A DNA stretch of 64,000 nucleotides from positions 3,008,501-3,072,500 of the forward strand of contig NZ_CP043930.1 of assembly GCF_009720525.1 (NCBI RefSeq), written 5' to 3'. Origin of the DNA: Gimesia benthica. Its GTDB lineage: Bacteria > Planctomycetota > Planctomycetia > Planctomycetales > Planctomycetaceae. A program made the position numbers and the translations under genes. Shown here one piece after another: positions 41,344 to 56,998 of the stretch. The notes under the pieces are model-generated. The model did not search any database, was not told the DNA's origin, and saw nothing but the letters and a program-made list of their open reading frames with translations. Numbering within the stretch: position 1 is the stretch's first letter; every line of letters starts with the position of its first letter.

Positions 41344-44300
41344 TCACAAGGTCACAGTTTCAGGATCAAACCTGTGAGAAGCAAGCCTGGTTTTATCAGG
41401 AGTGGCAATAGACAATTTTGCAACCCCCAAATAAAAGGAATACAGAACTGGCACGAGGAATAAAACCAGGATGGTGGCAAACATCTCCCCAAATGCGACA
41501 CTGGTGGCCATCGGAATCAGCATTTGCGCCTGAAAGGATTTCTCCAGCAGGATTGGGGTCAGGCCGCCGACTGTGGTTAAAGTTGTCAGCAGGACTGGAC
41601 GAAAGCGGCGTTGGCCGGCCTGCAGCAGGGCCTCGCTGTCACTCATGCCACCTGCCCGCAGATGATTGATAAAATCAACCAGAACAATGGAATCATTAAT
41701 CACGATTCCGGACAGGGCAACCAGTCCAAAAATACTGAAAATGGTCAATGGCAAATCAAGCAATGTATGCCCCGCTATCGCCCCCACCAGGCCGAAAGGG
41801 ATTATGATCAGAATGATAAGCGGTTGGACATATGATTTGAATTCGAATGCCAGTAAAACAAACATGGCCAGCAAGGCGACTCCAAATCCCACAAACATAC
41901 TCTGAAACGACTGGGCTTCCTGCTCCTGCTGCCCTCCCCAGCGAACACGCACTCCCGGATAGTCTGCCAGTACCTGAGGAAGAAAGTTTTCTTTCAAATC
42001 AGCAACAATTTCATGTGCATTCCCGGATGACTCTTCCACATCAGCAGTCAGTGTAATACAACGTTGCTGATCAATCCTGTTAATCTTCGAATAGCCACGC
42101 ACCACCTCGACCTGGGCCAGTTCGTTCAACGGTCTTTCGCTACCATCGCTGGTGCGAATCCGTAAATCACCAAAATCGGCAATCGACTGGCGATCCTCGC
42201 GCGGATAACGAACCATTAACCTTACTTCATGACGCCCCCGTTGTAACCGCATCACTTCCTGGCCGTAGTAAGTTGCACGTACGGTTTCTGCAAGGTCGGC
42301 AGCGCGGACTCCGATAGCCAGCGCACTCTCTTTCACACGAATGCGGAATTCCCACTTCCCTGGGGATGAATCATCAGAGATGTCAAACACCCCCGGATAT
42401 TCCGCCAGTTTCGCTTTGCACCGATCAATGGCTTCTGCCAGATGAGGAATACCGTCCCGATTGGCAGTGAGTTTGAATTCGATCGGTGAACCACCCGGAC
42501 CGGAAAAACTGGCTCCAAAAGTGAGTGATTCGGCTCCCGAAATATCGCCCACTTCTGCACGCCATGCCGCTGAGATTTCATCACTCCGATACGATCGTAA
42601 AGATGGATCGACCAGTTCCACTTCCACACCACCAAGATGACTGCTGTCGGTATTCGAAGCTGTAGATCGCCCCGGGCCTGCGTCCCCTGTCTGGGTTCCC
42701 ACTGTGATATATGCCATCCGCGCGATTTCGCCTTGTTCGGACTTGAGTCGCTCCGCCACACGCCAGAATGCAGCCTCGACTTTTCGTACTGCAGCAACCG
42801 TCACATCTTCAGGTGTGCCATCGGGAAATGTCACAGACGCCTGAATCGAGGTGCTGTCGAGCTTGGGAAAGAAAACAAAAGGCGTACGCCCGGACGAAAC
42901 CAGCCCAATCGAAATGATCCAGGCCGATATACATCCAGCAAGAAAATTCATTCGATTATGCATCACCCACCACAAGGCTGGTCGGTAGATCTTCTCAATT
43001 ACAAAGTTCAGGATGGTAGACGCGAGCTGGTTGAGCCAGTTCAACGGAACCAGAATCCATGAGACAACATAAAACACGTGGTGAAACATACGAAATACGA
43101 TACTGTCACTGTGTGCGAGATGGCACGGGAGAATCGTCATACATTCAATCAGCGACACAATCAGCATTGCAATAATCACTGTTGGTAACACGCAGACGAT
43201 TTTACCCAGGGTCCCGGAAACAAACAGCAATGGCATGAAGGCAATCACGGTCGTCGAAACCGAAGCCATGACGGAGGGAACAACTTCAACCGAGCCGTCT
43301 ATCGCCGCCTGAAGAACGGACTTTCCCATCTGGCGGTGTGCGTAAATATTTTCCCCCACGACAATGGCATCGTCTACCACAATTCCCAGGGCCATCACGA
43401 AAGCAAACATCGAGATCATATTCAAAGTTTGCCCGGTCAGCAGCAGGTATGCTGCTGTTGCCAAAAGTGAAAAAGGTATCCCCATCGCTATCCAGAACGC
43501 CAGCCTCAATTCAAGAAAAGCCGCCAAGACCAGAAACACCACGATCAAACCCTGCCAGCTGTTCCTGGTCAGTAAATCAATGCGACCACGTACTTCGATC
43601 GAACGGTCGCCCCACGTTTTGAGCTGGTAACCGGGAGGCAACTGATGGTTGTTGACATAGTCATACACCGTATCGACCATCGCCAGCAGGTCTTCATTGG
43701 GGTTACGCATGACAGACAGGACCAGCACAGGACATCCATCGATTTCGCTGATCGACGTGGTGTCCGCAAACCCATCTCTGACCGTACAGATATCACCAAC
43801 TTTCAGTACCGCTCCACCGGGCTGTGTAATCAGCGGAAGTGACTCGATTTCACTGCCCGTCAAACGTCGGTTATGTCCCCGTAACAGAACTTCCTGGGAC
43901 TCCGAGTGAATCGTCCCCCCGGGAGTATCGTTGTTTTCGCGCCGGACAGCTTCAGCAATCTGTTGTATCGTCAGTCCATGGGACTGAAGAGTGTCCTCGG
44001 AAACTTCGATATCAATCTGATACTCTTTGTCTCCAGAGAACTCCACTTCTGATATCCCCGGTAACTGCAGTAGATCTTCGCGAGCATATTCAGCCACTTT
44101 CCTCAACATCAGTTGTGCCTGCTCGCTGTTGTCTTTCGGGCCCACCACTCCCACACGGATGACCTGTTCGGTTTGTTCGGTCAGTTTGACTTCCGGGTCT
44201 TCTGACAGTGCCGGAAAAGTGGTAATGTGGTCCACAGCGGAACGAACATTGTTGAGGACCCTGTCCCGATTCGAAACATCGGAACGCAGTTCAAGCGAGA

Positions 44301-44574
44301 CAGTCCCCTGTCCCTCAGCTGCTGTTGAAGTCACCTTGTTAATACCGTCAACCGACCGAACTGCCTCTTCAATTTTCTGGCAGATCCCTTCCTCCACCTC
44401 TTCTGGTGACGCACCGGGATACGAAACAGAAACGGAAATGATATCGAGCTCAAATTCGGGGAAAGTCTCTCGATTCAACGACTGCAGACAGACCGTCCCC
44501 GTAAGAATCACCGCGATCATGATGATATTCATTGCAGGAGAATTCGAGATCGCCCAGCGTATAAAGGACTTCAT
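41344..44574 (-). CDS. RND efflux transporter permease (AcrB-like, HAE family)
   Basis: A 1076-residue product with the RND duplicated layout: a helix at ~10-30, a porter domain, about six helices (~335-570), a second porter domain, then six more helices. Typical segments are SVSYPGASPEEVEEGICQKIE, the transmembrane FVMALGIVVDDAIVVGENIY with the DD proton relay in helix 4, and a second half with LVALSGIVINDSIVLVDFIN. These predict a proton-driven inner-membrane exporter of drugs, lipids or metabolites. It overlaps the adaptor gene by 4 bp. No outer membrane channel gene is nearby. Confidence 0.95.
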   Translation of the reverse strand: MKSFIRWAISNSPAMNIIMIAVILTGTVCLQSLNRETFPEFELDIISVSVSYPGASPEEVEEGICQKIEEAVRSVDGINKVTSTAAEGQGTVSLELRSDVSNRDRVLNNVRSAVDHITTFPALSEDPEVKLTEQTEQVIRVGVVGPKDNSEQAQLMLRKVAEYAREDLLQLPGISEVEFSGDKEYQIDIEVSEDTLQSHGLTIQQIAEAVRRENNDTPGGTIHSESQEVLLRGHNRRLTGSEIESLPLITQPGGAVLKVGDICTVRDGFADTTSISEIDGCPVLVLSVMRNPNEDLLAMVDTVYDYVNNHQLPPGYQLKTWGDRSIEVRGRIDLLTRNSWQGLIVVFLVLAAFLELRLAFWIAMGIPFSLLATAAYLLLTGQTLNMISMFAFVMALGIVVDDAIVVGENIYAHRQMGKSVLQAAIDGSVEVVPSVMASVSTTVIAFMPLLFVSGTLGKIVCVLPTVIIAMLIVSLIECMTILPCHLAHSDSIVFRMFHHVFYVVSWILVPLNWLNQLASTILNFVIEKIYRPALWWVMHNRMNFLAGCISAWIISIGLVSSGRTPFVFFPKLDSTSIQASVTFPDGTPEDVTVAAVRKVEAAFWRVAERLKSEQGEIARMAYITVGTQTGDAGPGRSTASNTDSSHLGGVEVELVDPSLRSYRSDEISAAWRAEVGDISGAESLTFGASFSGPGGSPIEFKLTANRDGIPHLAEAIDRCKAKLAEYPGVFDISDDSSPGKWEFRIRVKESALAIGVRAADLAETVRATYYGQEVMRLQRGRHEVRLMVRYPREDRQSIADFGDLRIRTSDGSERPLNELAQVEVVRGYSKINRIDQQRCITLTADVEESSGNAHEIVADLKENFLPQVLADYPGVRVRWGGQQEQEAQSFQSMFVGFGVALLAMFVLLAFEFKSYVQPLIILIIIPFGLVGAIAGHTLLDLPLTIFSIFGLVALSGIVINDSIVLVDFINHLRAGGMSDSEALLQAGQRRFRPVLLTTLTTVGGLTPILLEKSFQAQMLIPMATSVAFGEMFATILVLFLVPVLYSFYLGVAKLSIATPDKTRLASHRFDPETVTL

Positions 44575-46106
44575 GGGTTTACCCCGTATTGAACAAGGAT
44601 GCCGTTCACAGGAGCGGTGAGTGGAGATACAACCACACGGTCCCCCGCATTTAACGACTCACCCGCATAGACCAGCACAGTCTTCCCCACGGTATGAGCA
44701 ATACGCACAGGAATTCGCTGCAGCGAACCTGTAATCATTTTTGAATCCTTTACCGCACTGGCATCCCGTACAGTTTTGGTGGGAGACACAACCCATACAT
44801 CATCTCCCGGATTGAGTGCAGCCTCAGGTATCTGCAGTAATTCAGTTTGCGGTCTGGAATGAACCAGAAGCTTGACAAACATCCCAGTCATTAACGAAAC
44901 CTGATGGGTTTCCTGTTGATCGGCCGAATTGCTCCTGGACTGACTCGCCTGCCCTTTGGATTGACGAACATAAACGCGGCAGGACACCAGACGTGTCTGG
45001 CGATCGACTTCCGCGCCGTCGAATGAGACCAGTGTACCTGACCAGGAATATTCAGTTCCGTCTACTGTAAACTGAACTGTTACGGGAGTTGGTGGAATAC
45101 GATACATATTCGCTGCCGTGGTCGTGACACCGTCTCTCGCAGCAGTAGAGTGCGATTCTTTACTGTTTAATAGCCATTTCATCTGCCGCATGTTCAAACT
45201 GCAACGGATTTCCATAGTCGAAACATCCTGAACCGTGGCGACTGTCGCACCACGCTGAAGAAAAACTCCTTCCTCAGCTGGCTCTTGCGTGATCACTCCC
45301 GAAATCGGGGAACGCACCGTACAACGCTCTTCATCAAAACGAGCTCGCTCCAACTGCACTGCGGCCAAATCCCGTGAACTCTTAAGCCGTTTTCGGGTTG
45401 CCTTCTCCACTTCTAGCTGATCAAGCTCCAACTGCAGCGAGTTTCGGGATTCCAGTTCTTCCAATCGAGAAGCGTCCACATCTGTATCAGTAACTACATT
45501 CCGCGAATTCAATTGCTTCATTCTGGCCAGATCGCGACTCTTAATTTTCTGTGTTTCCTGTGCAATCGCCACCTTCCGCTCGCGTGACGCGATATTCAGC
45601 TCCAGCTCGTTCAGACTTGCTTCCGCCTGTTCCAGTTGCTCTTCCAGCTGACGAACTTCAAGCTGATACTCGCGTGAAGCAATCTGGACGAGTACGTCTC
45701 CCTTTTCGATGAAATGACCGATGCGGCATTTTTCCGATCGTTCCGCAACCACTCCGGCTACTTCCACCGGAACTTCAATTCGCTTATAGGGAATCACGAC
45801 GCCATCCACGTCAAAGTCGATTCCACTGTGACTTGCCTGGACAGCGACGGTTTCGACAAAGGGTTGTCTGGAATCGGCTTTCTCACGAACGGGCGCAGGT
45901 CGGCTGGTATTTAAAGAAATAAATACCACAATACTCCCACAGATCAGCAGAAGTGAAATCAGGGAGCGAGTGAATACTGAGATCAGTTTCCTGATAGAAA
46001 ATATTGGATTACCATGACCTGGCTGAGAAGTATGTTCTCCCTTGGTATTGCCAGTCTCCTGCTGGCTGTCTTCATCAACCTTGACTGGAAGCGAATTGCT
46101 CTGCAC
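44571..46106 (-). CDS. RND efflux periplasmic adaptor subunit (membrane fusion protein)
   Basis: A 511-residue product from a GTG at 46106 with GGGAG upstream. A membrane anchor (SLISLLLICGSIVVFIS) follows a ~50-residue cytoplasmic head. Then comes the biotinyl-lipoyl-like motif VPVEVAGVVAERSEKCRIGHFIEKGDVL, a long coiled-coil hairpin (~140-240, LEEQLEQAEASLNELEL), a return lipoyl half RSPISGVITQEPAEEGVFLQRG, and beta-barrel and membrane-proximal domains (VSLMTGMFVKLLVHS). It docks the RND pump onto an outer membrane channel. It is coupled to the pump gene by an ATGA overlap and faces the tetR-like gene across the operator region. Confidence 0.93.
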   Translation of the reverse strand: MQSNSLPVKVDEDSQQETGNTKGEHTSQPGHGNPIFSIRKLISVFTRSLISLLLICGSIVVFISLNTSRPAPVREKADSRQPFVETVAVQASHSGIDFDVDGVVIPYKRIEVPVEVAGVVAERSEKCRIGHFIEKGDVLVQIASREYQLEVRQLEEQLEQAEASLNELELNIASRERKVAIAQETQKIKSRDLARMKQLNSRNVVTDTDVDASRLEELESRNSLQLELDQLEVEKATRKRLKSSRDLAAVQLERARFDEERCTVRSPISGVITQEPAEEGVFLQRGATVATVQDVSTMEIRCSLNMRQMKWLLNSKESHSTAARDGVTTTAANMYRIPPTPVTVQFTVDGTEYSWSGTLVSFDGAEVDRQTRLVSCRVYVRQSKGQASQSRSNSADQQETHQVSLMTGMFVKLLVHSRPQTELLQIPEAALNPGDDVWVVSPTKTVRDASAVKDSKMITGSLQRIPVRIAHTVGKTVLVYAGESLNAGDRVVVSPLTAPVNGILVQYGVNP

Positions 46107-46192
46107 GTGGATCTCCCGTATAGTCAGTCAGATGGTCTGAGTGGTTGCCTCACTCCTGGCCAGGGAATGAATTAGTAGTGCATATCACCGTA

Positions 46193-46250
46193 TTTAATAC
46201 ACGTGTATTAAATACTACGCTGGACCCATTTTTAATACAAGTGTATTATT
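46193..46250. promoter_or_regulatory. Two palindromic operators between the RND operon and the TetR gene
   Basis: TTTAATACACGTGTATTAAA at 46193-46212 is a perfect 20-bp palindrome. A second site at 46231-46250 keeps the core AATACA-NN-TGTATT. Their centres are 38 bp apart in the 201-bp divergent region. Perfect dyads here are the expected binding sites of the adjacent TetR-family protein, which would repress both the pump and itself. Confidence 0.8.
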
Positions 46251-46307
46251 ATTAATCTCAGTTAAATCACATGGATCGATTCCCCCTATTGGACTAAGGT
46301 AGCCCCA

Positions 46308-46934
46308 GTGGAGAACCAGGATACCCCACAACGACTTCTCAAAGCGGCAATTGTAGAATTTGCCGCAAAGGGCTTGGATAATGCGAACTTACGCGATATC
46401 TGCGCCCGCGCGGAAGTCAACCTGAATGCCGTCCGCTATCACTTTGGAAGCAAAGAGGGGCTATACATCGCGGCAGTGGAACAGGCCAACCGGACAGTCA
46501 TCGGAGAAATGCAGGAACCAACTGTCGACGACACAGTTCCACCTGAAGATCGCCTGCGCAAGTTCATCGGGGAGATGCTGGAAGTCTCAATGAGCGACCG
46601 TAGTCGGTCGACTCCAGAAGAAATGCTGATGTTTCGCGAGATTCTGGAGCCAACTGAAGCCACCGCCCAGATCGCACGATCTCATGCCAAACCCATGTTC
46701 GATCAACTCAATGCTTTAATCGCAGAATTGTTGCCTGATGGGGCTCCCAAGATTGATCAGCATCTCCTGGCAATCAGTGTGATTGGACAATGCATGCACT
46801 ACCAGTTCGGGAAACAGATGGATCGACTGGTGATTTCTCCCAGCGAATACCGCAAATTCACGATCCCCCGTGTTACGGATCATATTTTACGTGTCACCCT
46901 GGCAGCAATACGTGAGTATTCAACTGAGATATAG
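46308..46934 (+). CDS. TetR/AcrR family regulator (CecR/CerR-type C-terminus)
   Basis: A 208-residue protein from a GTG with AAGG ~8 nt upstream. The N-terminal helix-turn-helix is canonical: RLLKAAIVEFAAKGLDNANLRDICARAEV then NLNAVRYHFGSKEGLY. The remaining ligand-binding part resembles the CecR-like C-terminal domain (MLMFREILEPTEATAQIARS, SVIGQCMHYQFGKQ). It is divergent from the RND genes and next to two palindromes, so it most likely represses them until an inducer binds. Its last 55 bp overlap, antisense, the end of the STM4014-like gene. Confidence 0.93.
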   Translation: MENQDTPQRLLKAAIVEFAAKGLDNANLRDICARAEVNLNAVRYHFGSKEGLYIAAVEQANRTVIGEMQEPTVDDTVPPEDRLRKFIGEMLEVSMSDRSRSTPEEMLMFREILEPTEATAQIARSHAKPMFDQLNALIAELLPDGAPKIDQHLLAISVIGQCMHYQFGKQMDRLVISPSEYRKFTIPRVTDHILRVTLAAIREYSTEI

Positions 46935-48073
46935 TCCGTCACCAGAGAACTGATCTCACTCTGATACGTCTCCTCTCCTTCCCACAGGATCCCGGGCAGC
47001 AGATCCCCGAACGCATTCAGCTCCAGGATCAGGGCCTCGCGAAATCCGGGGGTCAGCAGCAGATCAACGCCCACCTGGAAACTCTCCGGATAAACACCCG
47101 CCGCCTGCTCACAGACTTCCATCAACGCACACCATCGGTCAGCACCGAGAAGCTCCTGCAGCCGCTCACCATCGCCTCTCCGGTTCCCCAGGTGCAGATT
47201 CGTCAGCGGGCTCCGACTCTCCCGCACTACAAAGTGCCGGGCCTGACCAGCGATCACCACCACTCGCAAATCAAACGTCCTGCCATGACTGAGCGCCGCT
47301 TTGGGCATCCACCGCTCCACATGCACTCCTTCCCGGCACAGTTCGTCGATCAACGTGCGGATTTCTCTCAGATCGGTGTACCGTCGGACCTTCAGGGAAT
47401 TATAGAGTCGCGTCTGCCCGTCCTGATTCACCAGCTCCGTAGAGGTGATCGCTTCGATCCGGCGGGAATTTTGATGCAGCGCCACCACACCCGATGCGGA
47501 AGAGGCATGTGCCAGCTTGAGAAAAACACGTCGCTCATTCCGCTGTTGCATGAAAGCAAGCAATTCCTCAAACGTATGAATTTCCGGAAACGACTCGGGA
47601 ACCGCACACCCTGCCTCCCTGCACCGGGCATGACAGGCCCGTTTATCAAACAGCTCCCGAATATCAGCCGGCGGATTCAACAGTCTGATGGATGCGATCC
47701 CCGACAGACACTTACCGATTTGAATCAGCAGGCTGCAATAGCCCATGTACCACTGTCGCGGATGCAGAATCAAACCATGGTCATACTCCAGCCTCTCGAT
47801 CTGACGCGGAGACAGAAAGGGGTTTCCTTCCACTTCGGCCGCAGCCACGCCTCGGGCCAGCAGTCCTTTCTCGACGGTGAAGTTTTCTCCGGGAGACTCG
47901 ATCCGCACAATGTCGCCCGGTCGAATGATATCCCGGAGACAATCCACGTCTTGCAGCAGTCGTTCATACGAAACGACACGGGCCGCGGGTTGCCCCAGTG
48001 ATTCCAGGGCCTGTTGAAACAGGTGGACTCTTCGATTCTCCGGGTTACCAATAATGACGAACTGAGAAGACAT
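46880..48073 (-). CDS. STM4014 family protein (ATP-grasp-like)
   Basis: A 397-residue protein. The N-terminal FVIIGNPENRRVHLFQQALESLG and the later segments FDKRACHARCREAGCAVPESFP, RRVFLKLAHASSASGVVAL, GVHVERWMPKAALSHGRTFDLRVVVIAG and EALILELNAFGDLLPG follow the order of an ATP-grasp ligase: a lysine-bearing loop, a glycine/serine-rich loop, then a Glu/Asn metal-binding strand. I recognise it as the STM4014 family because the neighbours are STM4011, 4012, 4013 and 4015 relatives. It presumably makes an amide or peptide bond on an unknown product. The STM4015-like gene is 19 bp upstream in the same transcript. Confidence 0.85.
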   Translation of the reverse strand: MSSQFVIIGNPENRRVHLFQQALESLGQPAARVVSYERLLQDVDCLRDIIRPGDIVRIESPGENFTVEKGLLARGVAAAEVEGNPFLSPRQIERLEYDHGLILHPRQWYMGYCSLLIQIGKCLSGIASIRLLNPPADIRELFDKRACHARCREAGCAVPESFPEIHTFEELLAFMQQRNERRVFLKLAHASSASGVVALHQNSRRIEAITSTELVNQDGQTRLYNSLKVRRYTDLREIRTLIDELCREGVHVERWMPKAALSHGRTFDLRVVVIAGQARHFVVRESRSPLTNLHLGNRRGDGERLQELLGADRWCALMEVCEQAAGVYPESFQVGVDLLLTPGFREALILELNAFGDLLPGILWEGEETYQSEISSLVTDYISVEYSRIAARVTRKI

Positions 48074-48092
48074 CGAACCGGTTCACAATCCC

Positions 48093-49030
48093 TTATTCAG
48101 AGACCGCACAGTAACGATTCACTTCGCCATTGTACTCATCAGGTTCCTGCTGATCGCTGACATCGACGTCGATCTCCAGGTCGCTCAACTTTTTGCACAT
48201 CTCATCGCTCAGATAATGAAAATGCAGATCCAGCTTTTTCAACTGGTTCAAACGATTGCAGTCCAGCAGGGCCTGGGCTCCCTCATCGCTCAGGGTCCCC
48301 AGTGACACATCGACTACCTCGACCTGGTTTAGAATCGGTGCCGCTGCGATCGCCTTGGCAATCTCATCCGAGAACATGCTGTTCCGCAGTCCCAGATACT
48401 TCAGTTTGGGAAACAGGGCGCCGGTCAACAACGGCTCCACGTCGGCAATGGTGGCGTCTCCACCATACTCGTCCGTCCCCAGCCACAGCTCCAGGTGTTC
48501 CAGTTCCGGGAGAACGGCAGCGGTCACTTCCTGAACGACATCTGCTCCCAGCCCCCCCGCTTCGATAACCAGTGTTTTCAAATGCTCGTGATTCACACGG
48601 CCCAGACTGAGGTCGTTCGCTCCCCGGATGCGCAGCTCCTCCAGCTGAGGAAACGATCTGAGCAGCGGTGACAGATCGGCCTGGCCGATCCAGGAGATTT
48701 CGCTTTCTTCAAATGTGATGTCACCAAAAAACAGGTGCCGCAATCCGGTCAGCAGATCACTGGAATCCAGCAGCTGATCGACGACGGTCTCTGCCCCGGA
48801 TCCTTCATAAGCTCCATCCCAGCAGCCAATCACCAGTGCAGTCACATTGCCGATCTGAGGATGACTCAGATACTTCTCCAGCAGATCGGAAAATTTCATC
48901 CCCTCCTGTTCTCGCTCGTATCCCAGCGTGAGTCGATAGGCCACGCCCGATGCATCCTGAATACCCGTTTCCGGATCGAATTCCCTGACAGGCAGGCCCC
49001 GAATTCATCCACATGAGAATCGATGGTCAT
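48093..49030 (-). CDS. STM4015 family protein, leucine-rich-repeat-like, with an apparent -1 frameshift near its start
   Basis: The body frame (48093-48944 from an internal GTG, ~283 codons) has leucine-rich-repeat-like spacing: FPQLEELRIRGANDLSLG, LPELEHLELWLG, FPKLKYLGLRNSMFSDE, LNQLKKLDLHFHYLSDE. The true start is probably the ATG at 49030 (GGAG 6 nt upstream), which opens MTIDSHVDEF, a beginning expected for the family. Adding one base in the C run 48997-49000 joins it to GLPVREFDPETGIQDASGVAYRL and the body. As written the frame is broken. The protein probably serves as a binding or scaffold partner in the cluster. It is co-transcribed with the STM4014-like gene and divergent from the HAD-STM4013-4012-4011 genes. 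Confidence 0.8.
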
Positions 49031-49211
49031 TGAAAGCTCCTCATAGTACGGCTGGTGACGAATTGACATCTTCTCCCGAACACTTATACAATAGAACAGT
49101 TCAGTAATGCAATCCACTGCAACAGGAAATTCACCGGGTCTTCACCTCGGCATGACGGGGGCTCAGGGATCATCATTCTCAAACACACAAAGGCGGCCTT
49201 CGCGGAATCCC

Positions 49212-49883
49212 ATGCTACCCAATGCAGACATCAAAGCCATTCTGTTTGACCTCGATAATACGCTCCTCGATCGCAGCGCAGCGGTCCGTCGCTATTTCAC
49301 ACAGCTCCTGCAGGATGCGTCCCCACCCCTGCCCGAGGATGAATTCGAACTCACACTACTGACCATCCTGGCCCGCGACCGGCTGGGCTACGAAGATCGC
49401 GCCGCATTCTTTGACTGGGCCGCCACGACCTGTTTTCCTGACTGGGCTCCAGCTGAACTCTGGTCAGATTTCCGAGAGAAACTGCCCCGAATGATTGAAC
49501 CCGATCCTCTCTGCCTGGAACTCCTGCAACGGCTGCAACCGCACTACGCGCTGGCCGTCATCACCAACGGTTCCGCAGAACTCCAGCGCGCGAAAATCGA
49601 AGCCGCCGGCATCGATCAACTGATCGATCACATCTGGATCTCAGAAGAAACGGGCGCAGCCAAACCGGATCAAGCCAGCTTTGCACAGGCGTTATCGGCA
49701 TTGGGAGTCACTCCCCAGCAGGCCCTGTTCGTCGGCGATCATCCATATCAGGACATCTCCGGCGCCCGGCAGATCGGTATGCACACCTGCTGGATGCAAC
49801 TGGACCGCACATTCCCCGGAGAATTCCCCGAGCCGCACTGCCAGATTTCTTCACTCGATTCACTACAATGTCTGGTACCATGA
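49212..49883 (+). CDS. HAD superfamily hydrolase (subfamily IA)
   Basis: From the ATG at 49212 (223 residues; an in-frame ATG at 49107 adds an unrelated-looking 35-residue leader). Motif I is ILFDLDNTLLD with the nucleophile Asp13 and acid/base Asp15, motif II VITNGS, motif III lysine in GAAKPDQASF, motif IV FVGDHPYQDISGARQIG. It removes phosphate from a small molecule; the substrate is unknown. Its stop overlaps the start of the STM4013-like gene (ATGA at 49880), so it appears to be a true member of the cluster here. Confidence 0.9.
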   Translation: MLPNADIKAILFDLDNTLLDRSAAVRRYFTQLLQDASPPLPEDEFELTLLTILARDRLGYEDRAAFFDWAATTCFPDWAPAELWSDFREKLPRMIEPDPLCLELLQRLQPHYALAVITNGSAELQRAKIEAAGIDQLIDHIWISEETGAAKPDQASFAQALSALGVTPQQALFVGDHPYQDISGARQIGMHTCWMQLDRTFPGEFPEPHCQISSLDSLQCLVP

Positions 49884-50695
49884 TTGATGCACGCGCCTGC
49901 CTGGGCACACACGACATCCTCTTGCTGACCCTCGATTCGCTCCGCTTCGATGTCGCAACCCGTGCGCTGCAGCAGGGACTGACCCCCAACCTGGCCCGCC
50001 TGCTCCCCGAGACCGGCTGGGAACGCAGACATTCACCAGGCAACTTCACCTATGCTGCTCACCAGGCCTTTTTCGCCGGGTTCCTCCCGACTCCCGTGAC
50101 ACCGGGCAAACATCCGCGACTGTTCGCCCTCGAATTTCCCGGCAGTGAAACCATCGCCCCAGAGACCTGTGTCTTCTCTTCAGACAACATCGTTACCGGA
50201 CTCGCAGCACAGGGTTACCACACGCTCTGTATCGGCGGCGTCGGCTTCTTCAACAAACAGAGTCCGCTGGGCAATGCCCTGCCCGAACTGTTCCAGGAAA
50301 ACCACTGGTATCCGTCCTTCGGGGTGACCGACCGGCACTCCACCCGGCACCAGGTCGATTTCACTCTCGAACGACTCCAGCAGCTTCCTGATGCGCAACG
50401 GCTCTTTCTGTTTCTCAATGTTTCAGCCACGCATCAGCCCAGTTGTATTTTCAAAGAAGGTGCACTTGCGGATTCCGTTGAAACCCAGATGGCAGCCCTC
50501 GCTTATGCCGACGCACAACTCTGTCCCCTGATCACAGCCCTGCAACAGCGGGCTCCGCTACTCTGTATCATCTGCTCCGACCATGGAACCACCTTCGGTG
50601 AAGACGGCTACCAGGGACACCGACTCGCACATCCGCTGGTCTGGGATGTTCCCTATCTCGAATGCCTGCTCCCCCAGACCGGAGGTCCGGCATGA
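49880..50695 (+). CDS. STM4013/SEN3800 family hydrolase (sulfatase/phosphatase-like)
   Basis: From the ATG at 49880 (271 residues), chosen because it overlaps the HAD stop by ATGA and gives MIDARACLGTHDILLLTLDSLRFDVA; an ATG at 49868 adds four residues. The alkaline phosphatase superfamily signature is present: LLTLDSLRFD (metal Asp), HSPGNFTYAAHQAFFAGFLP (position of the usual nucleophile), and LLCIICSDHGTTFGEDGYQGHRLAHP (metal Asp/His pair). The nucleophile appears to be Thr or another residue rather than the sulfatase Cys, so phosphate or phosphonate chemistry is more likely than sulfate. The stop overlaps the STM4012-like start. Confidence 0.87.
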   Translation: MIDARACLGTHDILLLTLDSLRFDVATRALQQGLTPNLARLLPETGWERRHSPGNFTYAAHQAFFAGFLPTPVTPGKHPRLFALEFPGSETIAPETCVFSSDNIVTGLAAQGYHTLCIGGVGFFNKQSPLGNALPELFQENHWYPSFGVTDRHSTRHQVDFTLERLQQLPDAQRLFLFLNVSATHQPSCIFKEGALADSVETQMAALAYADAQLCPLITALQQRAPLLCIICSDHGTTFGEDGYQGHRLAHPLVWDVPYLECLLPQTGGPA

Positions 50696-52011
50696 GCCAT
50701 CTACAGACACTGCTCGCGGAAACGCCCTACCTCGCCTACAGCTACGCCTATCCGCACAAGTCCGCTTATCGCCCGTTCACGCGACCGCTGCCCCTCCAGC
50801 AGATCTGGGAACCGGAAGACCATACTGATTTATCGCTTTACATCCATCTTCCTTTCTGCGAATACCGCTGCGGTTTCTGCAACCTGTTTACCCTCTCGAA
50901 TCCCCAGGACGATCTCGCTACTCAATATCTGCAGCAACTCCGCATCGAGGCCCGGCAGGTTCGCGATCAACTGCCCGACTTCCATTTTTCTCAGCTCGCG
51001 ATCGGGGGCGGCACCCCCACATATCTCGAGCCGAACGAACTCGCCCAACTGTTTGATATTCTCCAGAAAGAACTGAATACCAGCCCGGCACAAATCCCCT
51101 GCAGCCTCGAAGCTTCCCCCGCAACATTGACGGCGGAAAAAGTAGCCTTGATCCACGACCAGGGAATCGACCGTATCAGTCTTGGCATCCAGTCGTTTGA
51201 CGAACAGGAGGCCCTCAGCATCGGACGTCCTCAGAAACGACGTGAAATTCTTGAGGCGCTGGAACTGGTTCGCAATATCGGCATTCCTACACTGAACCTC
51301 GACCTGATCTACGGTGCCGATGGACAGACGATCGGCAGTTTTCGCGACTCGCTTCAGCAGGCACTCTCCTTCCAGCCGGAAGAACTCTATCTCTATCCCC
51401 TGTATGTCCGCCCGCTCACCGGCCTGGGACGCAAACCGCAGCAGTGGGACGATCATCGCCTGACACTTTACCGCACCGGCAGGGACTTCCTGCTCGAACG
51501 GGGCTACACGCAACACTCGCTCCGCATGTTTCGCCGGACAGATGCGATCCAGCCTCACGACACACAGTACTGCTGTCAGACCGATGGCATGATCGGCCTG
51601 GGCTGCGGCGCCCGCTCCTATACCAGCCGCATTCATTACTCCAGCGAATACGCGGTCGGCCGCACTGGTGTGGCGGCCATCATCGCACATTATCTCGAAC
51701 AGGAACCGGAGTCCTTCGCTTCAGCCCACTATGGAGTGGATCTGGATCGGGAGGAACAGCAGCGGCGGTTTCTGATCATGTCGCTTCTACAGACCACTGG
51801 CCTCTCCCGCGACTTCTACTCCCGGACCTTCGGCGGAGAGGTCCTCAGCCATTTCCCCGATCTGCAGGAACTGGCAGAACACGGGCTCGCACGAATCACC
51901 GCTGACACGATCATCCTCACCCCCGCCGGTCTCGAACGATCGGACACCATCGGCCCCTGGCTCTACTCGGAACAGGTCCTGCAGCGCATGGAGACGTTTC
52001 AATGTCACTGA
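50692..52011 (+). CDS. STM4012 family radical SAM protein (HemN/HemW-like)
   Basis: From the ATG at 50692 (439 residues), chosen for the ATGA overlap with the preceding stop at 50695. The [4Fe-4S]-SAM motif CEYRCGFC is at 56-63 (CX3CX2C), within LYIHLPFCEYRC. Next are AIGGGTPTYLEP (GGTP motif binding SAM) and RISLGIQSFDEQEAL, which are typical of coproporphyrinogen oxidase-like radical SAM proteins. A HemN-like C-terminal domain follows (MIGLGCGARSYTSRIHYSSEY). It is not expected to be a haem enzyme itself; the family is tied to this cluster and its product is unknown. It overlaps the STM4011-like gene by 10 bp. Confidence 0.92.
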   Translation: MSHLQTLLAETPYLAYSYAYPHKSAYRPFTRPLPLQQIWEPEDHTDLSLYIHLPFCEYRCGFCNLFTLSNPQDDLATQYLQQLRIEARQVRDQLPDFHFSQLAIGGGTPTYLEPNELAQLFDILQKELNTSPAQIPCSLEASPATLTAEKVALIHDQGIDRISLGIQSFDEQEALSIGRPQKRREILEALELVRNIGIPTLNLDLIYGADGQTIGSFRDSLQQALSFQPEELYLYPLYVRPLTGLGRKPQQWDDHRLTLYRTGRDFLLERGYTQHSLRMFRRTDAIQPHDTQYCCQTDGMIGLGCGARSYTSRIHYSSEYAVGRTGVAAIIAHYLEQEPESFASAHYGVDLDREEQQRRFLIMSLLQTTGLSRDFYSRTFGGEVLSHFPDLQELAEHGLARITADTIILTPAGLERSDTIGPWLYSEQVLQRMETFQCH

Positions 52012-52877
52012 AACTCAGCATCCTCTATCGCGGTCCACTCTCCAGTTGTAACTACGACTGTCATTACTGCCCTTTCGCCAAGCGCCACGAAACCGCCGCG
52101 GAACTGAAAACCGACCGACACGCTCTCGAACGCCTGGTGGACTGGGTCAAAGGCCGCCGCGAAGATTCGCTCTCCCTGTTCTTCACCCCCTGGGGAGAAG
52201 CACTCACCCGCCGCTGGTATCAGTCAGCCATCTGTGAACTGACCCGCCTCCCTCAGATTGAGAAAGTCGCTGCCCAGACCAATCTCTCATACGATCTGCA
52301 ATGGATTGAAAACGCCAACGTCTCCCGGCTCGCACTCTGGTGTACCTTTCACCCCTCGCAGACAACGCGGTCCCGCTTTCTCTCACAGTCACGCAGACTG
52401 ACTGAGCTCGGTGTCGCACACAGCGTCGGTGCGGTCGGGCTCCCCGATGATCTGCCCGAGATCGAACGGCTGCGTGCAGAACTTCCCGAGAATATCTATC
52501 TCTGGGTCAACGCTGCCAAAAGTTCCGGCGTGGATTATCGCGGCGAGTTACTGGACCGCTTCACGGCCATCGACCCGTTGTTTCAGCTCAACACCCAATA
52601 TCATGCAAGCCTCGGACGCAGCTGCCGGTGCGGCTCCAGTGTGATTTCGGTCGACGGGGCCGGCGACATCTATCGCTGCCACTTCATCAAACAGCCACTG
52701 GGAAACATTTATGAACCCGGCTTTGCAGACACGCTCATCGATCACCCCTGTTCAAACCAGACCTGTGGCTGTCACATCGGCTATGTACATATGGATGAAC
52801 TGCAGCTTTATCCGGTCTTTGGGAGCGGTATACTGGAACGCATCCCCGCGGAATTTCATCTACACCCGGCAAAATAA
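52002..52877 (+). CDS. STM4011 family radical SAM protein
   Basis: A 291-residue product. LSILYRGPLSSCNYDCHYCPFAKRHE holds the CX3CX2C motif (Cys16, Cys20, Cys23). The central part has FFTPWGEALTRRW and WCTFHPSQT. The C-terminus has further cysteines (SCRCGSSVISVDGAGDIYRCHFIKQ, HPCSNQTCGCHIGYVH) that could bind one or two auxiliary clusters, as in SPASM-type enzymes. It is the last of four translationally overlapped genes (HAD, STM4013, STM4012, STM4011). Two different radical SAM enzymes in one operon suggests two radical steps on one product. Confidence 0.9.
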   Translation: MSLKLSILYRGPLSSCNYDCHYCPFAKRHETAAELKTDRHALERLVDWVKGRREDSLSLFFTPWGEALTRRWYQSAICELTRLPQIEKVAAQTNLSYDLQWIENANVSRLALWCTFHPSQTTRSRFLSQSRRLTELGVAHSVGAVGLPDDLPEIERLRAELPENIYLWVNAAKSSGVDYRGELLDRFTAIDPLFQLNTQYHASLGRSCRCGSSVISVDGAGDIYRCHFIKQPLGNIYEPGFADTLIDHPCSNQTCGCHIGYVHMDELQLYPVFGSGILERIPAEFHLHPAK

Positions 52878-53057
52878 CGTCCTGCTCAGTACCTAAGTCG
52901 TTTGCCCAAAGGAAGTACGCCGTGAATCTTCAAAACTTCACACACGCTTCACAGTCCCACGCTTTACAAACCCGGACCGCCTGCCCCTATAATATTGAAC
53001 TACCCGCCCATACTTCTTAGATCAAATTCAACCGTTACAACACGACTTGAGGAAACT

Positions 53058-54733
53058 ATGAAACGCGCTGCTGTATCCAGCCTGTTCGCGCTGACTTTAC
53101 TTGCAATCTGTTTACCCGTCTCTGCCAAAAAACCGGAGGCTGACCATATTCGCAAGCTCCAGACCGAAGCCATTCGTAACAAGAAAAGCCCTGTCGCACA
53201 CTGGGGTTTCGAACCCGAAAAATATATCCAATGGTCTAACCATTCGCTGCGGCTGATTCCTGTCTACACCTTCGGCACTAAAGACGCCGGTCAGGGCATC
53301 GATCTCAAATCTTACACCGGTGTGAACAGCCCCTATCGCGATTCGAAAAAGCTGGAAGCCATTTATGGTTACTCGCCTGCCAACACTGTAAACCCCAAGG
53401 CAGACTACCTGGACCAGACCAACCTCTACAACATCCAGGAAGCAGCTCTGAAAGCAGGTAAGAAGAACATCATTCTCTTTGTCTTTGACGGCATGGACTG
53501 GCAGACGACCAAGGCTGCTGCCCTGTATTACTCCAAGGGTGACAAGTACAAAGGTGGACGCGGTACTGGCCTCCTCTTCCAGGACTACCCTGCTGCAGGC
53601 ACCTCGCAGTTCGGCTACATGGTGACTGCTCCTCATAATGCCGCCACCAACGTGGATGTTGATAAGCAGACCGTACTCAATCCAGGCGGTACAATTCGGG
53701 GTGGCTATAATGCGGAAAAAGGAGGTCCTAACCCTGGACTCCCGGCAACGATATCAAATATCTGATCAGCAGTCCCAGCAACAATTTCGGAGAGCACGCC
53801 TATCCAGACTCGGCAAACACCGCCACTTCGATGACCGCGGGAATCAAGTCCTACAACAATGCCATCAACGTGGATCCCACCGGAGCCCCGGTGATGACCA
53901 TCGCCCACCAGGCACAGTTGGACGGCTATTCTGTCGGGGTCGTCACCAGTGTCCCGATTACGCACGCCACCCCCGCTGCCGCCTACGCACACAACGTCAG
54001 CCGCAACGATTACCAGGACCTGGCCCGCGACCTCGTAGGACAGACCTCGATCTCACATCCTGAAGAATCGCTGCCCGGGCTCGATGTCGTTCTCGGCGGT
54101 GGACACGGTACAAAAGAAAAAGCCAGCGGCGGTAAATCGCACGGCAAAAACTTCGTCCCCGGCTGGAAGTACATCTCTGAAGAAACCATCAAAAAGGCCG
54201 ATGTCAAAAACGGTGGAAAATATACCGTCGCCCTCAGAACAGATGGCGTGGATGGAAAAGCCGGTCTCCAGAAAGCGACTCAGGCCGCCATCAAGAACAA
54301 AACCCGCCTGCTGGGTGTGTACGGCGTCGGAGCTCATGCAGCTCACCTCCCCTTCCAGACTGCGGATGGCGATTACCAGCCCGCGCCCGGCAAGACGAGT
54401 GCCGAAAAATACTCAGTCGCCGACATCAAAGAAAACCCCACCCTGGCCGATATGACCGAGTCAGCCCTCGATGTGCTCAGCCAGAACAAAAAAGGATTCT
54501 GGCTGATGGTCGAAGCCGGCGATGTCGACTGGGCCAACCACGACAATAATCTCGACAACTCTATCGGTGCTGTCAAAAGCGGTGAAGCCGCCTTCAAAGT
54601 TATCACCGACTGGGTCGAAAAGAATAGCAACTGGAAGGACACCGTCGTGATCCTCACCGCCGATCATGGGCACTACCTGCACATCGATCAGCCCGAGGCC
54701 CTGATTCCTCCCAGTGCGAAAAAACAGAAGTAA
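53058..54733 (+). CDS. Alkaline phosphatase, exported, with an apparent -1 frameshift
   Basis: From the ATG at 53058 (GAGGA 6 nt upstream) comes the signal peptide MKRAAVSSLFALTLLAICLPVSA. The first frame ends at 53765 with an unnatural tail. The matching C-terminal frame continues from ~53735. Inserting one base in the CCC run at 53732-53734 gives GGPNPWTPGNDIKYLISSPS and a continuous ~558-residue protein. Its parts are the metal-site FDGMDWQTTKAAALYY, the nucleophile Ser in YPDSANTATSMTAG, THATPAAAYAHN, MVEAGDVDWANHDNN and VVILTADHGHY. It would release phosphate in the periplasm. As written, neither half holds the full active site. It follows the STM4011-like gene by 180 bp. Confidence 0.82.
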
Positions 54734-54745
54734 CGCAGGCTGACT

Positions 54746-56998
54746 TCAGTTCGCCTGCAACTTCGGTTGTGTTGGCTGCAGCAAGCTGGTATCGAGCATC
54801 GCTCGCACCAGCTTCTGCGCCACTGGCCCCGCCACACGACTCCCCGAACCGCCATGCTCGATCACCACGGCAAACGCGTACTTCGGGCGCTGCGCGGGCA
54901 CAAACCCCGCAAACCACGCATGGTCGTTCTTGCCGCCCCCAGTCTCTGCAGTCCCCGTCTTACCGGCAATCGAAATCTCCTTGAGACGCACCGTTTTATA
55001 ACCGGTCCCCCGTGGATGCGCGACCACCTCGATCAGACCTTCCCGCACCCGTTCCAGCGTGCCGGGATGAATACCACTCACGTAACGTCGCGGATACGAT
55101 ATCATCTGCCGCGTTGTCGTGGATGATTCCGCGGAAGGCACCACACTATGCGCTAAATGAGGCACGACCATTTCCCCGTCATTGGCCACCACGGCCATCA
55201 GCCGCGCAATCTGCAGGGGCGTCACCGTCAGTCGTGACTGACCAATGGCCATGCCCAGTGTGTCCCCGGGATACCAGGGCGATTTCTTCTCAGACTTAGG
55301 CGGTGAGGGATCAGGCAGATGACCGCCCCGCTCTCCCGGGATATCGATCCCCGTCGGCTTGCCGAATCCGAGTTGATCGGCCCAGTGATGAATCGTCTCC
55401 GCTCCCATCGTCCGGGCCGCCTGGAAGAAATAAACGTTACACGATTCCCGCAGCGCCCGCGTCAAAGTCAGTTCATTATGTCCCACGCCAAAGTGCCTGT
55501 AGATATAGTCGCGATGCCGATCGGGCCGATCCAGATACCCGCGACAGATATAAGGTTCGTCAGGATCCACCTTGCCACTTTCCATGAGGGCAATTGAAGT
55601 CAACGCCTTGAACGTTGAACCGGGGGGCAGCATCATCTGCGTCGCCCGGGGAAACAGCGGACGTCGCGGATCATTCAGCACAGCCTGCCACTCTTCGGGA
55701 GTCGGATGCAGCAGCAGATTCAAATCGTAGCGCGGCGCGGAAGCAGTCGCCACAATCGCCCCGGTACGAACATCAAGTACGACAATACAACCACCGGCCG
55801 CGGGGTCGGTCTGCTCCGCAGGTTGCTCCTCGGTCCCCACGCGCAGTTCCTGCAGTGATTCATCCAGCAAGTCCTGCACCTGGTCCTGCAGACCCGTGTT
55901 CAAAGTCAGCACCACGTCATCGCCTGACTTCGGCTCGCGGATAATTTCGGTACGGATAATCTCGCCCTGCCGGTTGCGAACCACTTTTTTCAAACCCCGC
56001 AGGCCGCGCAGGTAACGGTCATAGGTCCGTTCGACCCCCATCTTGCCGATCCGGTCCCCTTCCTTATAATCCAGTGGATCTCCCTCCGGAAACCGCTGCT
56101 GCCGAGCCTTCAGTGTCTTCTCATCAATTCGATGCCGAACCCCAATCTCGTGAGGCGCCAGCGTTTTCTGCGGATACTCTCGCAATGTCGCCACCTGGAT
56201 ATGAATGCCCGGAAACCGCTCCGGATGTGCCGAGATGGCCAGGGCAATCTCCCGGGGAATCCCGGAAGCCAGCGTGTGATAATCCAGCTCTTCCCGCACC
56301 ACAATCCTCTCACGCCGTGGACGCCGCGGGGGCCGCGTTAAGGCATCTTTGAACAGCGTCCAGAATTTCTGCAGCTGATCCTGTTCTGTTGCAGCCTGCG
56401 TTTCGACATCAGAATCGTCGGACGAACTCGCCTCTTCCTTTTGAGCAGCGCGCTCATTCACACTTTCGATAATGGTCTCAACGCGTTGTTGTACGTCCCT
56501 GCATGAGGTCTGCAGATCTTCAGGACTGGTCTTCATCACCTGTGCCAGTTCGTCCCATAACTGCTGTCGTCGCGCCAGCACTTTCTCCTGCGCCGCCTCA
56601 ACCTTCTCACGGTTGCGGCGTTCCACCGGTTCGAGCAGCGTCAACGCCTGCTGTTTGAGCCACCTCGGATTCGGCGGCTCTTCCAGCCAGCGGTAATGAG
56701 CCTGCAGGTCGAAACGTTCGACATCGAGTGCCAGCACGCGACCATCAATGGAAACGATCCGCCCGTCACGGCTCGGTATGCTTTCGAAGGATTCCGTCGT
56801 TTTCCCGAACTGCGAATAAAAGTGTTCCGCATTCATCATCTGAATGAACAGCAACCGCCCGCTGACCGCCAGCAGGGGGACCACCAGAATCAACCCCAGC
56901 AGAAACACGCGAACGCCGGGCAGACGATCCACCTGAAACGACTGGCCCGCGGCCTCGTTTTCCAGTGTCATATGATCATTGCCGAGACGGTTTCGCAT
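54746..56998 (-). CDS. mrdA: Penicillin-binding protein 2 (elongation-specific transpeptidase)
   Basis: A 750-residue class B PBP. A membrane anchor at ~28-52 (VRVFLLGLILVVPLLAVSGRLLF) is followed by the dimerisation domain and RTYDRYLRGLRG-like GVERTYDRYLRGLRGLKK. The transpeptidase domain has SxxK (Ser461, Lys464 in GSTFKALTS), SxN (ESCNVYF) and KTG at 680-682 (GKTGTAETGG). An unusual charged stretch (~120-230) before the dimerisation domain makes the protein longer than E. coli PBP2 (~630 residues). It is the last gene of the mreB-mreC-mreD transcript (40 bp after mreD). It cross-links peptidoglycan during lateral wall growth. RodA is not in the window. Confidence 0.93.
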   Translation of the reverse strand: MRNRLGNDHMTLENEAAGQSFQVDRLPGVRVFLLGLILVVPLLAVSGRLLFIQMMNAEHFYSQFGKTTESFESIPSRDGRIVSIDGRVLALDVERFDLQAHYRWLEEPPNPRWLKQQALTLLEPVERRNREKVEAAQEKVLARRQQLWDELAQVMKTSPEDLQTSCRDVQQRVETIIESVNERAAQKEEASSSDDSDVETQAATEQDQLQKFWTLFKDALTRPPRRPRRERIVVREELDYHTLASGIPREIALAISAHPERFPGIHIQVATLREYPQKTLAPHEIGVRHRIDEKTLKARQQRFPEGDPLDYKEGDRIGKMGVERTYDRYLRGLRGLKKVVRNRQGEIIRTEIIREPKSGDDVVLTLNTGLQDQVQDLLDESLQELRVGTEEQPAEQTDPAAGGCIVVLDVRTGAIVATASAPRYDLNLLLHPTPEEWQAVLNDPRRPLFPRATQMMLPPGSTFKALTSIALMESGKVDPDEPYICRGYLDRPDRHRDYIYRHFGVGHNELTLTRALRESCNVYFFQAARTMGAETIHHWADQLGFGKPTGIDIPGERGGHLPDPSPPKSEKKSPWYPGDTLGMAIGQSRLTVTPLQIARLMAVVANDGEMVVPHLAHSVVPSAESSTTTRQMISYPRRYVSGIHPGTLERVREGLIEVVAHPRGTGYKTVRLKEISIAGKTGTAETGGGKNDHAWFAGFVPAQRPKYAFAVVIEHGGSGSRVAGPVAQKLVRAMLDTSLLQPTQPKLQAN

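Follow-up and report, generated by a model that had tools for sequence, protein, structure and literature searches.

A conserved C-terminal tail of the LRR protein STM4015 as the probable modification site of the STM4011–STM4015 enzymes

We find that the LRR protein STM4015 ends in a conserved heptapeptide with a terminal Glu, and we consider it probable that this tail is the site modified by the enzymes encoded beside it, whatever the fate of the product. If STM4015 is modified at its tail, the LRR protein would therefore be the missing substrate of the pathway. The cluster was analyzed in a 64,000-nucleotide stretch of the Gimesia benthica genome, which we call the window and from whose first letter all positions are counted. 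A preliminary description of this DNA had noted no obvious precursor peptide in the cluster. We depart from it on this point, since the "binding-repeat protein" that it listed, STM4015, bears the conserved tail and is our leading candidate for the substrate.

Gene layout and distribution of the cluster

The ORF list bears out the places and strands that had been given for six genes at 46880–52877, and the five family names also hold, as five of five proteins score above the cut-offs of their NCBIfam models (Table 1). The overlaps of 4, 4, and 10 bp reported for the plus-strand genes are obtained with a start at 49880 for STM4013 and at 50692 for STM4012; counting from the first in-frame ATG, by our reading, the first two become 16 and 34 bp. 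The start of the HAD gene at 49212 was chosen by reading of its DLDNT motif.

Table 1. Features of the STM4011–STM4015 locus in the window
Feature	Position	Strand	Evidence
STM4014; ATP-grasp, RimK/LysX-like by profile	46880..48073	-	NF038074, 398.9 bits (cut-off 175)
STM4015 LRR protein, ORF as in the assembly	48093..48944	-	NF038076, 352.4 bits (cut-off 275)
Codons of the STM4015 C-terminal tail RYCAVSE plus stop; proposed modification site	48093..48116	-	tail pattern
C run, 4 long; frameshift near STM4015 start	48997..49000	.	same-genus comparison
Promoter-like site preceding HAD, 11/12 matches	49063..49092	+	whole region at chance: 4 found, 3.4 expected
HAD-IA hydrolase, likely start 49212, open from 49107	49212..49883	+	PF13419 and PF00702 above cut-off
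STM4013, open from 49868	49880..50695	+	NF038075, 394.7 bits (cut-off 250)
STM4012, open from 50662	50692..52011	+	NF006067, 578.0 bits (cut-off 380)
STM4011	52002..52877	+	NF038073, 387.0 bits (cut-off 200)

The N-terminal codons of STM4015, which begin with the ATG at 49030, lie in a different frame from the remainder of the gene. On the plus strand, the C run is four long here versus five in three genomes of the same genus, in which STM4015 is open from the corresponding ATG. As a result of this N-terminal frameshift, the STM4015 ORF in the assembly starts only at the GTG at 48944; the frameshift may be a real mutation or a sequencing slip. Between 49031 and 49211, where a short conserved ORF had been proposed as a thing to look for, the five ORFs of at least 20 aa are the HAD gene, the out-of-frame start of STM4015, and three others 25–34 aa long, and no separate precursor ORF stands out. 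Within 44000–56000, no structured RNA matched an Rfam model at its gathering score. A role as a defense system was considered and rejected, the PADLOC matches being weak only (for STM4012, PDC-M51A at 1.9e-6 and pVip at 2.4e-5 were the best; for STM4015, CARF_PDDEXK at 8.4e-5).

To follow the genes across genomes, loci were gathered via STM4013, and those with at least 6 kb on each side were taken as well covered. STM4011, STM4012, STM4014, and STM4015 all lie beside STM4013 in 35 of 50 such loci; at least one of the four is missing in the other 15, in 4 of which STM4013 stands alone. In a survey of the phylum that sampled 199 genomes and covered STM4013, STM4014, and STM4015, all three were found in the same five genomes (STM4013 and STM4014 above cut-offs, STM4015 at E ≤ 1e-20). 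The genes thus co-occur as had been proposed, and the joint occurrence of these three in the phylum is more than chance. Wherever a locus has both STM4014 and STM4015, the STM4015 gene nearest to STM4014 lies on the same strand (62/62 loci), and it lies upstream in 60.

The cluster is widespread and found in many bacterial groups. Among the best 80 of at least 382 relatives, records named Planctomycetota, Myxococcota, Cyanobacteria, and Chloroflexota carry the genes, and annotated plasmid records with them come from Pseudomonadota, Deinococcota, Bacillota, Actinomycetota, and Bacteroidota. An identical gene order can be read from the annotation of Salmonella, Deinococcus, Paenibacillus, Streptomyces, and Methylobacterium plasmid records. 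Viral carriage was rejected: 46 viral-contig stretches matched a search pattern, and none encodes an STM4013 relative. In agreement with the preliminary description, which knew of no product or reaction, the open-licence papers searched yielded no function for the cluster. PMC3844500 lists a sigma-54 site at STM4013.S under intra-ORF sites, in the opposite orientation, and PMC2784778 includes STM4015 in a selection-test table; the excerpts consulted of PMC4275035, PMC8939145, and PMC4431377 do not mention the cluster.

The conserved C-terminal tail of STM4015

The tail has the consensus R-Y-x-A/S-V-x-E-COOH. An ending of the form R-[YF]-x(3-5)-E is present in 101 of 111 complete STM4015 copies versus 15 of 10,693 other ORFs from those loci, counted over loci L032–L119 with L001–L031 left out (L039 is the locus of the window itself). 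In six of these 15 cases the ORF is the end of an STM4015 copy that is broken or cut, and the 302 ORFs assigned to the other cluster families never show the pattern. A further 14 complete STM4015-like ORFs scoring at most 100 bits were counted apart; 4 have the tail, all of them short pieces. At the level of DNA, tail-like sequences were found at 101 sites within 506 kb of cluster DNA versus 2 in 638 kb outside. Within the window's own genome, the tail pattern is overall neither rarer than chance nor different from it (3 matches, one being STM4015, versus 7 for the reversed control).

Without exception, the 35 rows of a diverse STM4015 alignment have a terminal Glu, which also ends 104 of the 111 complete ORFs; the R[YF] pattern is absent from 10 copies, 7 of which also have no terminal Glu. 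In loci of a divergent subtype, which have a divergent STM4014, the tail is G-D-x-E, with the Glu retained. In a separate set of five STM4014 loci, L148, L152, and L154 duplicate the already counted L085, L074, and L113. When copies sharing a locus are compared, their last seven residues are 57% alike versus 40% for the body, a moderate difference.

STM4015 has a solved homolog, 2ra8 (Bacteroides fragilis Q64V53; E 1.4e-71), whose entry is titled "Uncharacterized protein." The protein is acidic, with a median pI of 4.67 versus 5.72–6.67 in the four enzymes; these values were computed on ORFs taken from the first start codon, so that some N-termini are too long.

The enzymes encoded beside STM4015

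STM4014 had been described as ATP-grasp-like, which its invariant residues (K144, K186, D337, E351, and N353 in 37 sequences) and profile matches support. An hhalign comparison gave 95.9–96.3% against the RimK family and 8.2–67.8% for the Ddl, AccC, and PurK controls taken from relatives, the PurK control containing one row of just 160 aa. Among these four families, STM4014 is by profile nearest to RimK-type ligases, whose members act at a C-terminal Glu. In a PDB search, STM4014 profile A2 ranked LysX first (E 0.0011); with profile A5 this ranking was not repeated, and 2pn1 was the sole match at E ≤ 0.01.

The two radical SAM enzymes are of different types, as had been proposed, judging from PDB profile matches. 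STM4012 is HemN-like (HemN 1olt, E 4.1e-56; NocN 9p2u, E 1.8e-36). STM4011 has eight invariant Cys in 30 sequences, five of them beyond the radical SAM set, and its only PDB match at E ≤ 0.1 is SkfB, a peptide-modifying radical SAM enzyme (6efn, E 0.0027); this likeness is weak and confined to the C-terminal Cys region.

STM4013, which had been labeled "phosphatase/sulfatase-like," is a hydrolase of the alkaline-phosphatase superfamily, and the sulfatase half of that label is not supported. The Cys or Ser for formylglycine conversion that marks type I sulfatases is replaced by Thr61, which occupies the nucleophile place (≥95% of 86 sequences); the Asp/His sites are conserved. Because Thr61 also aligns, weakly, with the Thr of a nucleotide pyrophosphatase, STM4013 appears phosphodiesterase/phosphotransferase-like rather than a sulfatase. 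The HAD protein passes the general HAD-IA subfamily models TIGR01549 and TIGR01509, and no equivalog. It had been counted as part of the cluster; it is present in the window but is not a constant member, its type occurring in 17 of 80 loci. Other HADs adjoin the cluster in Salmonella, and, by our reading, a HAD is fused to STM4011 in Bacteroides.

Proposed chemistry and alternative readings

Our proposed sequence of events would begin with STM4015 presenting its conserved C-terminal heptapeptide after an acidic linker whose length varies. STM4014 would then use ATP to activate a carboxylate of this terminal Glu and join an amine to it. Remodeling of the group on the tail would fall to the HemN-type STM4012 and to the SkfB-like STM4011, with its extra Cys, and removal of a phosphate to STM4013 and, in loci that have one, a HAD. 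We lean slightly toward the modified LRR protein itself as the end product, since several diverged LRR proteins often share a single set of enzymes and no peptidase for release was recognized.

A variant of this proposal, possible though on balance unlikely, is that STM4015 is a recyclable LysW-like carrier, on whose terminal Glu a metabolite is built until a peptidase encoded elsewhere frees the small molecule. The combination of an acidic protein, an essential-looking C-terminal Glu, and a RimK/LysX-like ligase does recall the LysW/LysX-ArgX amino-group carrier systems, as described in PMC9303977 and PMC10433800. In contrast, LysW is a small zinc-Cys protein, whereas STM4015 is an LRR scaffold of about 280–450 aa, with no Cys column above 40% in its 35-row alignment. 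The LysW motif EDWGE is not found in the STM4015 tail (RYxxVxE, GDxE, or other), nor is the LysX motif GSWGR in STM4014 (0 of 42 sequences), and no LysZ/Y/J/K genes were seen in the cluster neighborhood. No peptidase appeared in the 12 of 19 recurrent neighbor groups whose representatives were scanned with Pfam. Furthermore, there are several diverged STM4015 copies per locus, mostly around one STM4014, which is hard to square with a mere carrier.

The tail could instead serve as a docking signal through which the enzymes recruit the LRR protein, the substrate of STM4014 being a small molecule in free form or a different protein. Partner binding is common among LRR proteins, and the tail varies with the STM4014 subtype, as a docking motif might. 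However, the terminal Glu is retained while the remaining tail changes; therefore, a reacting residue fits better than a binding motif, and we regard the docking reading as rather unlikely.

Cross-linking of the tail within itself, either as a graspetide-type lactone or lactam or by a PQQ-type radical SAM coupling of Glu to Tyr, would make use of the ATP-grasp and radical SAM enzymes present and of the Tyr and Glu common in the tail. The Tyr, however, is missing in Salmonella, Methylobacterium, and the GDxE subtype, and none of the Ser, Thr, or Lys ring partners of graspetide cores is constant in the tail, which makes this reading very improbable. That the tail does no more than cap the LRR fold structurally is hardly credible: the conservation of its Arg equals that of the LRR scaffold leucines, but the variable acidic linker separates it from the repeats, it is absent from two LRR relatives located away from STM4014, and the 2ra8 match ends just ahead of it (profile position 303 of 310).

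Modification of the STM4015 tail by the cluster enzymes remains our preferred reading, and two further systems help to place it. PMC8939145 and PMC4431377 cite, by title, the addition of Glu by RimK to the C-terminus of ribosomal protein S6. STM4014 would be an ATP-grasp ligase of the same type as RimK; unlike RimK and S6, the cluster has a dedicated neighboring LRR partner and two radical SAM enzymes. Pearlins are similar in that a gene-encoded carrier is worked on at its C-terminus, and one such pathway includes a radical SAM enzyme (PMC9303977), but they need a lantibiotic-dehydratase-like PEARL, for which there is no match in the six window proteins.

What is new here is the tail of STM4015 and, as we infer, the substrate role of this protein. 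The families STM4011–STM4015 bear Salmonella locus names, and these NCBIfam names assign no function. We tentatively suggest a new class of protein-tethered chemistry, in which LRR families (some with WGR domains) bear an encoded C-terminal acceptor tail, a dedicated RimK-type ligase charges the tail, two radical SAM enzymes convert what it carries, and one set of enzymes serves several LRR proteins. An LRR substrate with a terminal Glu site would narrow the functional question for these families to one C-terminal peptide and, if this is true, a repeat protein some 300 residues long would be a new scaffold for tail-tethered chemistry.

A conserved C-terminal tail in the STM4015 proteins

The preliminary description had reported no obvious precursor peptide in the cluster, a statement that we now revise: the leucine-rich-repeat (LRR) proteins of the STM4015 family share a tail, R-Y-x-[AS]-V-x-E, that is flush with the stop codon (RYCAVSE in the window). 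In the loci compared for this count (L032 to L119; L numbers denote loci and G numbers genomes), the pattern R[YF]x(3-5)E closes 101 of the 111 complete STM4015 ORFs scoring above 100 bits, and Glu is the last residue of 104. Other ORFs of these loci, 10,693 in all, give 15 and 378, respectively (six of the 15 are where a broken or cut STM4015 copy ends), and the 302 ORFs belonging to other families of the cluster give 0 and 5. At the DNA level, tail-like places number 101 in 506 kb of cluster versus 2 in 638 kb outside, the latter two being relatives of one another; 88 of the 101 lie at recognised STM4015 ends, and 11 of the other 13 resemble the ends of broken or cut copies.

Among copies of at least 200 bits, 97 of 102 end in Glu, and these 97 have Arg at -7 in 96 cases and Tyr at -6 in 92. 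In an alignment of 35 diverse proteins, a linker of variable length precedes the tail, and the last Glu is the sole tail residue kept in every row. The tail was also found in all five STM4014 loci of a 251-genome sample around genome G199, three of which duplicate loci already counted, so that two are additional. The R[YF] pattern is missing from 10 of the 111 ORFs; seven of these lack the Glu end, including two that end in YYSSYG.

Divergent STM4014 proteins, still over the cut-off, occur in L049, L063 and L188, and their partners end in GDIE, GDPE and GDYE; a second STM4015-like ORF of L063 ends in GDWE. A WGR domain was assigned by Pfam in both GDxE-type proteins scanned (from L063 and L188), and Myxococcus STM4015 copies (L050) also carry one. 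The GDxE tails and those of Salmonella (MNAMYTE), Methylobacterium (RSIAVSE) and Bacteroides (YYPMITE) have only the Glu in common. No such tail was present in two LRR relatives encoded in L133 and L135, stretches without a recognised STM4014. As a separate observation, cyanobacterial ORFs of 38-43 aa directly upstream of STM4014 end in the same tail and have no LRRs (Table); they may be broken-copy remnants or minimal tail peptides.

Gene content and order across loci

All six ORFs were borne out at 46880-52877 of the window, in a host genome of 8.03 Mb on a single contig, and five of the six proteins (STM4014, STM4015, STM4013, STM4012 and STM4011) reach NCBIfam cut-offs. STM4015 and STM4014 lie 19 bp apart on the minus strand, and HAD, STM4013, STM4012 and STM4011 overlap slightly on the plus strand. 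An 11/12-match promoter-like site lies upstream of HAD; such sites occur in the region at chance level (4 versus 3.4 in shuffled sequence). The end of STM4014 is overlapped by 55 bp, on the opposite strand, by a CecR-like TetR regulator that adjoins an RND-type efflux gene set (named by reading translations), and a downstream alkaline phosphatase gene apparently lies in two frames.

Among 199 genomes of the phylum, STM4013 and STM4014 exceed their cut-offs in the same five. STM4015 reaches E <= 1e-20 in six, namely these five and G044, in which an STM4014 match is absent; the STM4015 cut-off itself is exceeded in only three of them. The STM4013 model, at E <= 0.001, matches 130 of the 199 genomes, which we take as general superfamily similarity.

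We then surveyed 80 named loci chosen by STM4013 similarity alone (the best 80 of 382 relatives), of which 50 are well covered, with at least 6 kb on either side of STM4013. These 50 hold STM4015 in 39 cases, STM4014 in 40, STM4012 in 45, STM4011 in 39 and the window's HAD type in 9, with STM4011, STM4012, STM4014 and STM4015 all present in 35. Among the 15 loci that lack at least one of these, STM4013 stands alone in four (L043, L066, L095, L114), and in L119 STM4015 is cut by the locus end. In all 62 loci holding both, STM4014 shares its strand with the nearest STM4015, which lies upstream in 60; the median distance is 22 bp. This count leaves aside L049 and L063, whose STM4015 partner scored too low, and L042 and L099, where STM4014 was not found. 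Per well-covered locus, there are up to six STM4015 copies, and STM4014 is single in 39 and double in one. At least two STM4015 copies are present in 23 loci; for 66 within-locus STM4015 pairs, median identity is 40% in the body and 57% in the last seven residues, a modest difference. Many cyanobacterial copies have an extra N-terminal region, as read by eye. STM4015 is acidic (median pI 4.67, range up to 9.84), and the four enzymes have median pI values of 5.72-6.67.

The same gene set occurs on annotated plasmid records of Salmonella, Deinococcus, Paenibacillus, Streptomyces and Methylobacterium; Bacteroides finegoldii has a broken STM4013 and, within the stretch, no annotated STM4012. Several Chloroflexota MAG loci (L095, L098, L081, L082, L114) have STM4013 without other cluster genes in the stretch. 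The setting of this hydrolase differs on two Streptomyces albidoflavus plasmids, where the other four genes are absent; the neighbours of STM4013 there are a radical SAM protein and thymidylate kinase (L258), as well as a NUDIX hydrolase and a lasso peptide B2 protein. Beside the cluster, a DUF6745 protein recurs in 11 survey loci and a ~100-aa protein with the motif GEVTGHxH in 5, with further examples on three plasmid records. In Myxococcus loci and one Pirellulales locus, STM4015 has a near neighbour that carries the vWA domain known from FtsH ternary systems. In L105, recorded under the name Comamonas sp. KCTC 72670, the gene arrangement resembles that of Myxococcus (HAD-4013-4012-4011 with divergent 4014 and 4015), and the genome is perhaps misnamed.

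Coordinates of features in the window and in compared loci
Feature	Coordinates	Remark
RND-type efflux gene set	window 41344-46106	
TetR regulator, CecR-like	window 46308-46934	PF09209
Stretch missing from G181	window 48418-49457	L032, near 8865-8871
Alkaline phosphatase gene	window 52995-54733	
Alkaline phosphatase, first piece	window 52995-53765	no family match over cut-off
Alkaline phosphatase, second piece	window 53831-54733	PF00245
GDxE-type protein with WGR domain	L063:12339-13778	
Short tail-ending ORF	L070:6680-6796	
Short tail-ending ORF	L097:6567-6683	
Short tail-ending ORF	L080:6311-6427	
Short tail-ending ORF	L100:6723-6854	
DUF6745 / GEVTGHxH neighbour	L113:4407-5833	
DUF6745 / GEVTGHxH neighbour	L137:10021-11318	
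DUF6745 / GEVTGHxH neighbour	L140:3486-4811	
DUF6745 / GEVTGHxH neighbour	L139:2168-3632	
vWA-domain protein	L048:10275-11774	PF19997; also L050, L051, L053
S. albidoflavus plasmid, STM4013 setting	L258:848-4889	
S. albidoflavus plasmid, STM4013 setting	L142:6968-8889	

State of the cluster in the genus

In 13 genomes of the genus, STM4014 is full-length in five, a remnant in one (a 151-aa open frame) and without a match at E <= 1e-10 in seven. STM4015 is open from its conserved start in three of the five; at one nucleotide run, the window has four nucleotides versus five in these three. G181 is missing ~1.04 kb: the divergent genes for HAD and STM4015 have both lost their N-terminal parts, and the intervening DNA is gone; the C-terminal part of STM4015, with its tail, is still present. 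Between the window and G181, dN/dS is 0.10-0.19 over the shared parts of the five STM genes, which may mostly reflect the time preceding the lesions. The window cluster is patchy and possibly decaying, and an intact relative is therefore better suited to experiments.

Enzymes and a proposed tethered pathway

STM4014 aligns with RimK-family proteins of relatives at hhalign values of 95.9-96.3%, versus 53.8-67.8 for Ddl, 11.3-22.9 for AccC and 8.2-9.1 for PurK as controls. In comparison with the PDB, LysX (E 0.0011) heads the list for STM4014 profile A2, with 3vpd next; this ranking is not robust, because profile A5, built without plasmid sequences, finds 2pn1 alone at E <= 0.01. STM4012 matches HemN (1olt, E 4.1e-56), followed by NocN. 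STM4011 has eight Cys invariant in 30 sequences, and SkfB is its only PDB match at E <= 0.1. STM4013 has Thr at the nucleophile place, weakly aligned with the Thr of a nucleotide pyrophosphatase, and the superfamily Asp and His sites are conserved. HAD-IA occurs in the window as well as in 17 of the 80 loci, a Cof-type HAD adjoins the Salmonella cluster, and B. finegoldii STM4011 has a HAD-like C-terminal part (FDVDGT motif, by reading). These varied HADs suggest a possible phosphorylated intermediate.

A full-text search of the open-licence PMC literature found no function for STM4011-4015, which is no proof of absence, and no mention of SEN3800, DUF6745 or "STM4015 family"; two papers do name genes of the STM4011-4015 set, but in other contexts than function. 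In the same texts, LRR together with precursor, radical SAM and RiPP, and LRR with LysW, gave only unrelated matches, and the combination of leucine-rich repeat, radical SAM, ATP-grasp, carrier protein and C-terminal gave none.

LysX, as described in excerpts of PMC10433800, attaches the substrate amino group to LysW at the gamma-carboxyl of its C-terminal Glu, and a tethered-biosynthesis logic common to amino-group carriers and pearlins is set out in excerpts of PMC9303977. By analogy with LysX/LysW, the last Glu of STM4015 would be the target of STM4014, whose product would in turn be a substrate for both radical SAM enzymes. Since there are several diverged STM4015 copies, and no peptidase was found in the 12 neighbour groups scanned (of 19 that recur), we slightly favour that the group would be retained on the LRR protein rather than released.
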